Source: Flavobacteriales bacterium (GTDB lineage: Bacteria > Bacteroidota > Bacteroidia > Flavobacteriales_D > Sanyastnellaceae). Taken from it: a DNA stretch of 64,000 nucleotides. Each line of letters starts with the position of its first letter. Within the stretch, counting starts at the first letter, position 1. Under the pieces are notes generated by a model that had not been told where the DNA came from, made no database searches, and saw only the letters and a program-made list of their open reading frames with translations. Positions 43,652 through 46,872 of the stretch are shown piece after piece. The stretch is from NCBI GenBank assembly GCA_027491075.1, contig JAIXWX010000025.1:1-64000 (forward strand). Reading direction: 5' to 3'. The position numbers were made by a program, and so were the translations under genes.

Positions 43652-44599
43652 ATGATAGCAGACTTACTAGGGGGCAATGTAATCATCTTTGCCATTGTCA
43701 TTTTTCTTTTGGTGCGTTCTTTTCGTACCGTTCAACAAGGAACGATCGCTGTCGTTACTATATTCGGAAAGTACCGCCGCGTGTTACAACCAGGATTGAA
43801 TTTAGTTATTCCGTACATTGAGGTTATCTTCAAAAGAATTTCTACGCAGAACCGTTCGGTAGAATTGGAGTTCCAGGCGGTTACACAAGATCAAGCAAAT
43901 GTATATTTCAAGAGTATGCTTTTGTATTCTGTATTGAATTCTGATGAAGAAACGATAAAGAGAGTGGCCTTTAAATTTATTGATGAGCGCAGTTTGATGC
44001 AAGCGCTTATACGTACTATCGAGGGTTCTATTCGTGCTTTTGTTGCGACAAAAAGACAAGCTGAGGTCTTGTCACTGCGCGGTGAAATTGTTGCACACGT
44101 GAAAGAGCAAATTGATCAGGCGTTAGAGGAGTGGGGTTATCACTTGCAAGATTTGCAAATCAACGATATCACTTTTGATGAGGCAATTATGCGATCCATG
44201 AGCCAAGTGGTAGCTTCACATAACTTGAAAGCTGCTGCTGAAAACGAAGGTCAAGCTTTACTTATCACGAAGACCAAAGCAGCAGAAGCGGAAGGTAATG
44301 CCATTAAAATTGCCGCGGAGGCGGAAAGAGAAGCAGCGCAACTTCGAGGACAAGGTGTGGCTTTGTTTAGAGAAGAAGTTGCACGCGGAATGAAAGATGC
44401 TGCGCGCGAAATGCAACAAGCGAATCTCGATACAAGCATGATTATGTTTTCAATGTGGACTGAGGCTGTAAAGAATTTCGCTGAGTACGGAAAAGGAAAT
44501 GTGATTTTCCTTGATGGTAGCTCAGAGGGAATGCAAAAAACTATGCAACAGCTAATGGGAATGAGTAATATGATGAGTAATCAGAACCCGAATAAGTGA
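43652..44599 (+). CDS. SPFH/Band 7 (stomatin/QmcA-like) membrane protein
   Basis: The 315-residue protein has one N-terminal membrane segment (~8-24), then the SPFH domain (RTVQQGTIAVVTIFGKYRRVLQPGLNLVIP at its start, cited as RTVQQGTIAVVTIFG) and a long alanine/glutamate-rich coiled coil (~190-260). Family members oligomerise into large membrane-associated cages, organise microdomains and modulate proteases such as FtsH. No NfeD-like partner is adjacent. Its terminator is shared with the convergent RnfD/DUF2330 gene. Confidence 0.93.
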   Translation: MIADLLGGNVIIFAIVIFLLVRSFRTVQQGTIAVVTIFGKYRRVLQPGLNLVIPYIEVIFKRISTQNRSVELEFQAVTQDQANVYFKSMLLYSVLNSDEETIKRVAFKFIDERSLMQALIRTIEGSIRAFVATKRQAEVLSLRGEIVAHVKEQIDQALEEWGYHLQDLQINDITFDEAIMRSMSQVVASHNLKAAAENEGQALLITKTKAAEAEGNAIKIAAEAEREAAQLRGQGVALFREEVARGMKDAAREMQQANLDTSMIMFSMWTEAVKNFAEYGKGNVIFLDGSSEGMQKTMQQLMGMSNMMSNQNPNK

Positions 44600-44611
44600 A
44601 TATAGTAAATG

Positions 44612-44640
44612 AAAAAGTCTCCCTATAAGGGAGACTTTTT
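44612..44640. terminator. Bidirectional terminator
   Basis: AAAAAGTCTCCCT / AGGGAGACTTTTT, a 13-bp perfect stem with a 3-base loop, serves the SPFH gene and the convergent RnfD/DUF2330 gene, whose stop codon lies within it. Confidence 0.92.
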
Positions 44641-46872
44641 CTTAAAGAAAGTGAGAATAAATAAAGTGAATAAAATCAGGCTTATTGCCTTCATCAAAAG
44701 GGACCCAGAGACCTCTGAAAGAAACCCATTTTTCTGATATTGAATCGCATTCTGTTTCTTAAACTCATGAATATAGGATGAACTATTTTTAAACGGAGTT
44801 CCAGTTAAGGCACTATACTCATCAACTTCAATTTTTCTGCGATTAGACAATTCATCAATGTACAGCTGGCCAGCCTCGCAGTTCAAATCCCCTTGAGCAG
44901 GATTGGTCAAAACATACCGCGCTTGAAAATTCTCATTGTTGGGAGTGACTTGAAAAACTAAATCAGAGGGAAACTTACTCTTTTCATAGCGTACGTGTAA
45001 TCTGGTAAAAAAAGTCTGTTGATTTCCCCACCAAACACCAGCATCAACAAGCTCTTGATTCATTGGGGGAGGACCTACACACGGATCACATTTCATGGAC
45101 CAGTTAGGTGTTACATCCCATGCATACTCTAAGAACACAGCATTTCGGTTTTCCGCTTTCCAAGTTTTTTCAAAAAGCTTTTTATAGAAAGGATTGAATT
45201 CACTTTTTACGGGTAGTGGAATTTTTCTATCGGTGGGAATTTTCACGGTTCGGTAGTTGGTGCATTCTACCCGACCAGTTCTCGTGAGTGCATATACTAT
45301 CATATCCTGAGCACCTTGACTATTGGCCATACCTAATCGGATGGGTAACATGAATTTTGGAGAATCAAATTTTATTTGTAGAGGATTTAAGTATTGAAAT
45401 CCTTGCTTCTTAAACTCGGCTATATCCACCTTCACCACAAAGAACTTCATATTGCTTTTTATGTAAGGATTTAAAACTTCGTCTGCAGTAGTAGGTATTT
45501 TGTAACCGTTCTGTATCAACCAATCTCGAAGGCCAGTGCTTTCCGTTGCACTGAGAATAAGAATGTCATAGTGACCAATCTTGTATTGAGCTTCAATTTT
45601 CACCGCTTTACTGTAGGATTCTATATTTCCAGTGCGACTGCTGCTTTTGATGGTAGCATTATCTGCCATGCTCATCATAGATTCCTCGACGTAGCGATAG
45701 CAAGGATTGTGGTCATAATACTCAACCAATCGCGGGGCGCTGTATGCATCTAAATATTCAAAAATCTTCCGGTCCACGATCTTTATATCTTCTTTTTTAA
45801 GAACAACAGGCACGGGCACTACCATTGCAAAGTCTGAGACATCGCCGTTGAAATCATTACTCATGGTGATCACGTTAGTATCCCCATCACGTACCATGAT
45901 GACTTCACTTTTATTGTTGAATATGGAAGCGTCGGCTTTGGCTACATAGAATCCGCAAAAACCGTAAGAGGTTTGATAAAGAAAAAGGGTCGCAGTAAGT
46001 ATTGCGACGATCTTAGCAAATAAGGTTCTCATAAGCATACTTGATTTTAAGGTGAATTTTTTTGATTGAAGCCATTGAAAGTGCTTGTTTCCAGTGAAAT
46101 AATTGATTACGGGAACTAGCGGTGTGGAGAAGAATAGCACCCATTGCATTGCGGTAGGAATAAACTTGAAATTGATCAAGTAGAAAGACAATGATGCGAC
46201 GAGTATTGCCCAGATTATTCTAATGCTCTTTCTAGTTGGAGTGGTCATTGGATCGGTGATCATGAATAAGCCAAAAAGCCACAAACTACCTGAGGAAATA
46301 CGGTGAAGCCAAACTTCGTATTCCCAACCTAAATAAATTACCGTTCTAAAAAAATCCAAAACAATAAAAGTGAGAAGAAACGCAATAGCGGTATCGTTAC
46401 GGTTAATGCGTGAAAGAATATTTAGGCCCGCAGCACTTATAATCAAAACCAAAATAGCCTCAGTTCCCCATTGACCGGGAGATACCCAGCTTCCTTTTGA
46501 AAGAATAATTGAGATAATGATTCCGAAGTTTGCTGGATTCCATAAATGATATCCATAGGGTCTAAATGCAAATTTTTGTCCTATGGATACTCCTGCGGCA
46601 GCGAATAGAATCCATGGGGAATTTGCTTTGAGTAAAAGACATATACCCAGTGAGGTGATGAGCGCACTTTTCATACTATCCGCAGGAATAGCTGCAAATC
46701 GAATAAAAAGTGCTTGGGTTAAAGTGGCTCCGACAAATGCGGCAATGAAATACCAGTAGGTCTGATCCCATTGAAGAAAGAACAACCCGTATGTTAAGAA
46801 AAATAGTTGAGAAATAATTTGATAATGTCGGGCATCAGACTGGAGCCATTTTAATGGAGCGATAGAGATCAT
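44623..46872 (-). CDS. RnfD/NqrB-like membrane domain fused to DUF2330
   Basis: The 749-residue protein (ATG 46872; the longer form would need a TTG) has an N-terminal polytopic domain (~15-260) resembling RnfD/NqrB subunits: SLGICLLLKA, HLWNPANFGI, SSGSLWLFGLFMITDPMTTP. I do not see the S-G-A-T motif used for covalent FMN attachment. After a short loop comes a hydrophobic stretch starting MRTLFAKIVAILTATLFLYQ (~281-300) that looks like a signal peptide, then a DUF2330 domain (~305-650: GFCGFYVAKADASIF, DFAMVVPVPV) and a final membrane segment. DUF2330 would face the periplasm. Function is unknown; two neighbouring genes joined in frame are the likely origin. Confidence 0.8.
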   Translation of the reverse strand: MISIAPLKWLQSDARHYQIISQLFFLTYGLFFLQWDQTYWYFIAAFVGATLTQALFIRFAAIPADSMKSALITSLGICLLLKANSPWILFAAAGVSIGQKFAFRPYGYHLWNPANFGIIISIILSKGSWVSPGQWGTEAILVLIISAAGLNILSRINRNDTAIAFLLTFIVLDFFRTVIYLGWEYEVWLHRISSGSLWLFGLFMITDPMTTPTRKSIRIIWAILVASLSFYLINFKFIPTAMQWVLFFSTPLVPVINYFTGNKHFQWLQSKKFTLKSSMLMRTLFAKIVAILTATLFLYQTSYGFCGFYVAKADASIFNNKSEVIMVRDGDTNVITMSNDFNGDVSDFAMVVPVPVVLKKEDIKIVDRKIFEYLDAYSAPRLVEYYDHNPCYRYVEESMMSMADNATIKSSSRTGNIESYSKAVKIEAQYKIGHYDILILSATESTGLRDWLIQNGYKIPTTADEVLNPYIKSNMKFFVVKVDIAEFKKQGFQYLNPLQIKFDSPKFMLPIRLGMANSQGAQDMIVYALTRTGRVECTNYRTVKIPTDRKIPLPVKSEFNPFYKKLFEKTWKAENRNAVFLEYAWDVTPNWSMKCDPCVGPPPMNQELVDAGVWWGNQQTFFTRLHVRYEKSKFPSDLVFQVTPNNENFQARYVLTNPAQGDLNCEAGQLYIDELSNRRKIEVDEYSALTGTPFKNSSSYIHEFKKQNAIQYQKNGFLSEVSGSLLMKAISLILFTLFILTFFKKKSPL

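Follow-up and report, generated by a model that had tools for sequence, protein, structure and literature searches.

The membrane proteins RnfD and NqrB (PF03116, TIGR01946) share a 10-helix fold and bind riboflavin, which is contacted in NqrB by N200, N203, T162, D346 and, through its backbone, F342, and in RnfD by N123 and D249 (PMC10643135, PMC11889175). RnfD also carries covalent FMN as its periplasm-side redox centre. RnfD/NqrB-type membrane proteins serve extracytosolic partners outside Nqr and Rnf as well, in the flavinylated systems described in PMC8238504, which combine a cytosolic domain of NqrF type with a partner that binds FMN. UnbU, a short RnfD-like protein, is known from annotations of enediyne clusters on Streptomyces plasmids, and its partner is UnbV (FG-GAP/ASPIC). 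DUF2330 (PF10092) is absent from the main text of PMC8238504, and a text search of 5.39 million papers found no mention of it. Literature searches on P35-like bacterial proteins, UnbU and RnfD-like proteins returned nothing useful.

The window analyzed here, a 64,000 nt stretch of a contig from a Flavobacteriales bacterium (JAIXWX010000025.1), pairs an RnfD-like protein with DUF2330. The RnfD-like half shares the 10-helix fold and the riboflavin-contact residues of RnfD/NqrB but is only about 280 aa long, lacks the covalent-FMN motif, lies outside an rnf/nqr operon, and falls far under the TIGR01946 cut-off (35.2 vs 207 bits). Like the systems of PMC8238504, it would be an RnfD/NqrB-type protein with an extracytosolic partner, but the pair has neither the NqrF-like domain nor the FMN-binding partner. 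No UnbV/ASPIC partner is adjacent in the window, where the partner is DUF2330.

Both halves are encoded in a single open frame of 749 codons (46872-44623, minus strand), which contains an RnfD-like domain, a complete signal peptide and DUF2330 (Table 1). A Pfam search matched PF03116 in the portion preceding the internal start (E 2.8e-15, about the first 279 residues) and PF10092 in the portion after it (E 1.7e-73; E 5.6e-73 as a full domain match), the latter scoring 246 bits against a curated cut-off of 24.7. A sequence-only reading of this DNA had proposed such a frame, and the junction it described, KSSMLMRTLFAKIVAILTATLFLYQTSYG/FCGFYVAKADAS, was found as stated, together with the two ATGs in frame at 46038 and at 46032. 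The AF2 model of the whole fused protein has pLDDT 87 and pTM 0.84, and charge suggests that the N- and C-terminal ends of the RnfD-like domain are both cytosolic. When aligned, free DUF2330 proteins start at the Met equivalent to the internal Met of the fused frame, and FCGF is invariant at the mature N-terminus, which places an invariant Cys there. The proposed signal peptide is real by these comparisons. Since the helix belongs to the downstream gene as its signal peptide, the frame is a fusion of a gene pair, and the helix is not a conserved built-in element of an RnfD-like family. The hairpin terminator at 44611-44641 also encodes the KKKSPL tail and is common to the fused gene and a convergent Band_7/SPFH gene (43652-44599).

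Table 1. Features of the fused gene in the window (aa, residue of the fused protein).
Feature	Position	Strand	Evidence
RnfD-like membrane domain, aa 1-268	46069..46872	-	PF03116 E 2.8e-15; AF2 model; 10 predicted transmembrane segments
Asn112, equivalent of NqrB N203 (riboflavin site)	46537..46539	-	invariant 69/69
Asp207, equivalent of NqrB D346 / RnfD D249 (riboflavin site)	46252..46254	-	invariant 69/69
Internal in-frame ATG, aa 279, first candidate internal start	46036..46038	-	upstream 20 nt 45% A
Internal in-frame ATG, aa 281, equivalent to start of free DUF2330 genes	46030..46032	-	alignment with separate homologues
DUF2330 signal peptide, aa 281-304, cleavage expected after SYG	45961..46032	-	sequence; homologue alignment
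DUF2330 domain, aa 304-640	44953..45963	-	PF10092; model pLDDT 84, pTM 0.78
Met-rich disordered DUF2330 loop, aa 392-423	45604..45699	-	pLDDT <50 over most of loop
CDPC motif, aa 595-598	45079..45090	-	both Cys invariant 72/72
C-terminal transmembrane anchor, aa 724-745, tail KKKSPL	44638..44703	-	sequence and AF2 model
Hairpin terminator, 14 bp, spans the stop codon of the fused gene	44611..44641	-	fold z -6.67

The arrangement of the two genes was compared across genomes. In a first sample of 60 related genomes DUF2330 was present in 30, and 27 of the 30 loci fetched from related genomes have both genes (23 separate, 4 fused). A one-genome-per-species scan added the best 80 of 566 relatives. 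Most of these are Bacteroidota; Acidobacteriota and Cyanobacteria contribute one record each. Fused and separate states were called using HMMs built from the first alignments, followed by deduplication. Among the resulting 90 deduplicated loci with both genes, a set that draws on the best 80 of 566 relatives and still holds near-identical strains (e.g. L007/L009, L070/L072, L040/L042/L043), 70 have the genes separate but adjacent, an arrangement the sequence-only reading had proposed to search for, and 20 have them fused. With duplicates counted the fused share is 22/105, and the count leaves out 9/99 deduplicated rows without an RnfD-like match. On the DUF2330 tree, which excludes four rows (L113, L114, L029, L030), the fused state needs 11 changes, gains and losses together, at least 10 of them forced by well-supported branches. 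In Acidobacteriota a strong DUF2330 match (E <1e-70) is present in 9/199 sampled genomes. The RnfD-like gene adjoins DUF2330 in all nine, split over two frames in L117, and the two are fused in four (L115, L119, L120, L121). A conserved gene pair has merged into one frame, repeatedly, and on comparison of these sequences the fusion is real and recurrent.

Gene spacing was measured in 67 separate rows, three others having no ATG in range and giving no distance. The genes overlap in 26/67 and are spaced 0–30 nt apart in another 26/67. Because they overlap or nearly touch, loss of the stop codon alone yields a fusion when the frames agree. Seven loci (L003, L004, L006-L010) have both genes in the same frame with a stop codon between them. 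One genus contains two fused members (G466, G560) and two separate ones (G013, G032), and the congeners G000 and G002 are fused and separate, respectively, the genes of G002 overlapping in different frames. Two frames in a congener speak for a sequencing or assembly error at the window junction, with two genes in the actual genome. However, the same architecture occurs in 19 other deduplicated loci from two phyla, the fusion is absent step-wise in relatives, and the 749-codon frame is intact with in-frame homology on both sides, so that such an error is very improbable.

Besides the pair no recurrent neighbour was found among 80 loci, the next cluster reaching 11/80 with clusters only partly identified. 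No other rnf/nqr genes recur in the operon at these 80 loci either, and no linked electron-donor gene was found at the loci. Several loci depart from the simple pair. The RnfD-like gene is split over two frames beside an intact DUF2330 in L068, L093, L099 and L178, by frameshift, decay or assembly error. Tandem DUF2330 genes follow one RnfD-like gene in L059 (six, the last cut by the locus end), L108 (three), and L097, L105 and L089 (two each). Three Bacteroidota loci (L066, L098, L105) have DUF2330 with CxxC and no RnfD-like match nearby; L105 is on the same contig as L108, which has such a match. On a plasmid of Deinococcus sp. QL22 (L113, 7875-9158) the DUF2330 gene is in pieces with no RnfD-like gene nearby.

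We then asked whether the start of the downstream gene is retained after fusion. Counting back from the first Cys in the mature part, an ATG lies at a distance of 14–35 codons in 16/20 fusions, the exceptions being L002, L041, L053 and L086, the last from Flavisolibacter longurius BT320. Flavitalea sp. BT771 (L084) is one of the fused species that have the internal ATG. As this range is too loose as sole evidence, a range of 23–27 codons, in which 15/20 fusions have an ATG, was used together with a synonymous-codon test. One clade, made up largely of Chitinophagaceae, contains two separate and ten fused rows, and 9/10 of the fused ones have the ATG exactly 25 codons before the Cys despite differing linkers. 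The 20 nt upstream contain 50.6% A in the 16 fusions, compared with 49.8% at 67 separate starts and with 26.8% and 15.1% at ordinary internal ATGs in the DUF2330 and RnfD parts of fused genes (controls overall 15–28%). Folding near the internal start is weak, -2.5 kcal/mol vs about -9 kcal/mol at ordinary internal ATGs. In synonymous-codon resampling A-richness was above expectation in 16/16 fusions with the ATG (mean z 1.9), although the loci are related and the p-values of this test overstate independence. As controls, 172 ATGs inside these genes gave a mean z of -0.13, and in the four fusions without the ATG the A-rich context is gone as well (mean z -0.17). A-richness beyond synonymous expectation indicates that the context is not explained by the encoded protein. 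The internal start of the window itself gives a moderate signal (A z 1.93, folding z 0.23).

The four fused Acidobacteriota genes have a Shine-Dalgarno-like site before the internal ATG (-8.8, -9.3, -8.7 and -5.6 kcal/mol), against a control mean of -3.06 kcal/mol with 17/78 controls at -6 or lower. With an A-rich context in the 16 fusions above and Shine-Dalgarno-like sites in Acidobacteriota, two lineages with different start signals retain the internal start. By the -3/-1 rule, signal-peptidase-like residues are also kept in 19/20 fusions and 67/70 separate genes.

A different explanation of these data is that only the single fused protein is made, the internal ATG and its context being left over from a recent fusion. 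The four fusions lacking the ATG indicate that a pure fusion is viable, and that free DUF2330 is not always needed. Against this stand the exact 25-codon spacing in one clade, the excess of A over synonymous expectation, and the disappearance of the context where the ATG disappears, and we consider a single product rather unlikely. Together these results are strong evidence for a retained internal start that bears a nucleotide-level signature of selection in most fusions. Free DUF2330 can probably still be made alone from this start in most of them. The sequence-only reading had offered a gene fusion or two products as alternatives, and both hold in combination, with the internal start signals kept in 16/20 fusions. 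Its description of the signal peptide as a relic was partly wrong, for the peptidase-like residues persist and the start is mostly retained.

The RnfD-like half was examined for features of RnfD and NqrB. Its structure matches RnfD (8rbq_D) with a VIA Z of 23.5 over 252 residues (rmsd 4.3) and NqrB with Z about 20–21; ammonium and urea channels match the fold with Z about 10–11. An alignment of the window protein with 68 of 72 references (69 sequences) was used to examine individual residues. The full flavinylation motif [DN]x(1-3)[ST]GA[ST] occurs in 0/69, the window included, so its absence, noted from the window alone, extends to all aligned relatives; a bare [ST]GA[ST] occurs in 2/69. The equivalents of the riboflavin site are conserved, T/S73 and N112 in 69/69, F203 in 68/69 and D207 in 69/69, and the equivalent of NqrB N200 is H109, His in 69/69, with the first-half mapping resting on low-scoring HMM alignments backed by the structural match. 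The riboflavin-contact residues fall within the motifs FNPxN and FMxTDP. A short loop with W129, S131, P132, Q134, W135 and G136 is conserved in 66–69/69 and appears to take the place of the longer FMN-bearing segment of RnfD. Since covalent FMN is the periplasm-side redox centre of RnfD, its absence leaves a gap in the outward electron path.

The RnfD-like half is the sole PF03116 match in the window genome. Full NqrB/RnfD is present in 20/30 pair-bearing genomes and absent from 10/30, and in genomes without the pair NqrB is present in 22/30 and absent from 8/30. Co-occurrence with NqrB was rejected as a clue, the pair being found both with and without it. Where a genome with the pair lacks NqrB, its sole ApbE is a divergent one (E 1e-8 to 1e-28, e.g. 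G000:C20:3438-4247). For the membrane half, a redox role is the interpretation that fits best, as an inferred function. The functional link suggested earlier between DUF2330 and electron-transport-like membrane proteins is supported by the genomic pairing and the kept riboflavin-site residues but stays putative.

Other members of the RnfD-like family have other partners. On a Metabacillus plasmid the relative overlaps by 4 nt a gene for a membrane-anchored AhpC/TSA redoxin with CxxC, and on a Serratia plasmid it lies near an FG-GAP/UnbV_ASPIC protein (Pfam) that has CAPC. The Metabacillus and Serratia relatives led to UnbU, as 46 of 50 matched plasmid records were from Streptomyces, many annotated as enediyne biosynthesis protein or UnbU. 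The pairing with UnbV was seen by Pfam in the Serratia plasmid and in Acidobacteriota. The RnfD-like profile matched 44/247 Acidobacteriota genomes, from which 30 loci were fetched. A DUF2330 partner is present in 12/30 and an FG-GAP/UnbV-like ORF in 14/30 (13 by motif, L192 by Pfam); six of the 13 motif calls were checked and 6/6 match UnbV_ASPIC. An FMN_bind ORF is present in 2/30, next to the more remote relatives L193 and L194, and ApbE, looked for in L194, is present there. In the other two loci (L177 and L195) no partner was recognised. At 13 loci the upstream UnbV-like ORFs, which are partial, were inspected and none has CxxC, so CxxC is no rule for partners. Because relatives are paired with UnbV, FMN_bind or a redoxin, DUF2330 probably takes the place of an extracytoplasmic partner, a placement that does not amount to proof of electron transfer.

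The DUF2330 half was aligned with 71 of 75 references (72 sequences). Five Cys are invariant in 72/72, including both of the CDPC (CxxC), and may form plain disulfides plus one free thiol. In a small comparison, CxxC was absent from the remote PF10092 members inspected, which have no RnfD neighbour (Nocardia L114, Acidobacteriota L125-L128), in contrast to the RnfD-linked branch. The disordered loop is 25–35 aa, nearly constant in length and variable in sequence, with 7.5% Met vs 2.3% elsewhere across the 72 sequences.

The DUF2330 model resembles the overall fold of baculovirus P35/P49 caspase inhibitors. It matches P35 with a VIA Z of 10.3–10.8 over 216–227 residues, the next unrelated chain scoring Z 7.0, and the top three matches among BFVD viral models are P49/P35 proteins from three viruses. 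In P35 a reactive-site loop is cut by caspase and the N-terminus moves into the caspase active site, and P35 inhibits gingipain K too (PMC3375223). One could therefore imagine a non-redox pair, in which the RnfD-like protein is channel-like or a scaffold, as its matches to ammonium and urea channels might suggest, and DUF2330, with an invariant Cys at its mature N-terminus, is a P35-like inhibitor of envelope caspase-fold (clan CD) proteases. However, Foldseek TM-scores of the model to P35-type folds are low (0.23–0.42), and DUF2330 has no sequence similarity to P35, its profiles matching nothing among PDB sequences up to E 10, so the likeness to P35 is only a lead. DUF2330 also differs from P35/P49 in being predicted as secreted, membrane-anchored and cysteine-rich. 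Clan-CD proteases proved uninformative, C25 (PF01364) being present in 58/60 genomes and C14 (PF00656) in 7/30 with the pair vs 3/30 without it. The non-redox pair leaves the riboflavin-site residues unexplained, and we regard it as quite doubtful. DUF2330 may be a thiol redox partner or something else.

Our preferred explanation, a stop-loss operon fusion with two products acting as a redox conduit with DUF2330 as partner, is held as a whole with moderate confidence. A two-gene operon would have lost its stop codon, so that the reading frame of the RnfD-like protein continues straight into the partner's signal peptide. The fused gene would then make a 12-helix fusion and, from the internal ATG, a free membrane-anchored DUF2330. 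In either product the signal helix should insert with its N-side cytosolic and may be cut by signal peptidase after the helix, and both routes would leave DUF2330 outside. The RnfD-like part would bind riboflavin without covalent FMN and could connect the extracytoplasmic partner, by passing electrons, with the quinone pool or with a donor in the cytosol. DUF2330 would be that partner, and its invariant CDPC cysteines are a candidate redox site.

A broader reading, which we put forward tentatively and think unlikely to hold in every part, is that these RnfD-like proteins, standing alone and lacking FMN, form a family that serves as a general electron conduit in the membrane and swaps DUF2330, UnbV, redoxin and FMN_bind partners. 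The operon of the DUF2330 branch would repeatedly collapse into one gene with two products, in which the signal peptide is internal and the internal start is under nucleotide-level selection. The P35 fold would have a bacterial relative in DUF2330 and might even derive from it.

Through this pairing DUF2330, an unstudied domain, gains a conserved membrane partner and testable chemistry, and a link is drawn from it to UnbU/UnbV, the pair known from enediyne clusters. Should the likeness to the P35 fold prove real, it would bear on where the viral caspase inhibitor came from. Separate genes, fusions with an internal start and fusions without one form a natural series in which to study how operons can merge and yet retain two products.
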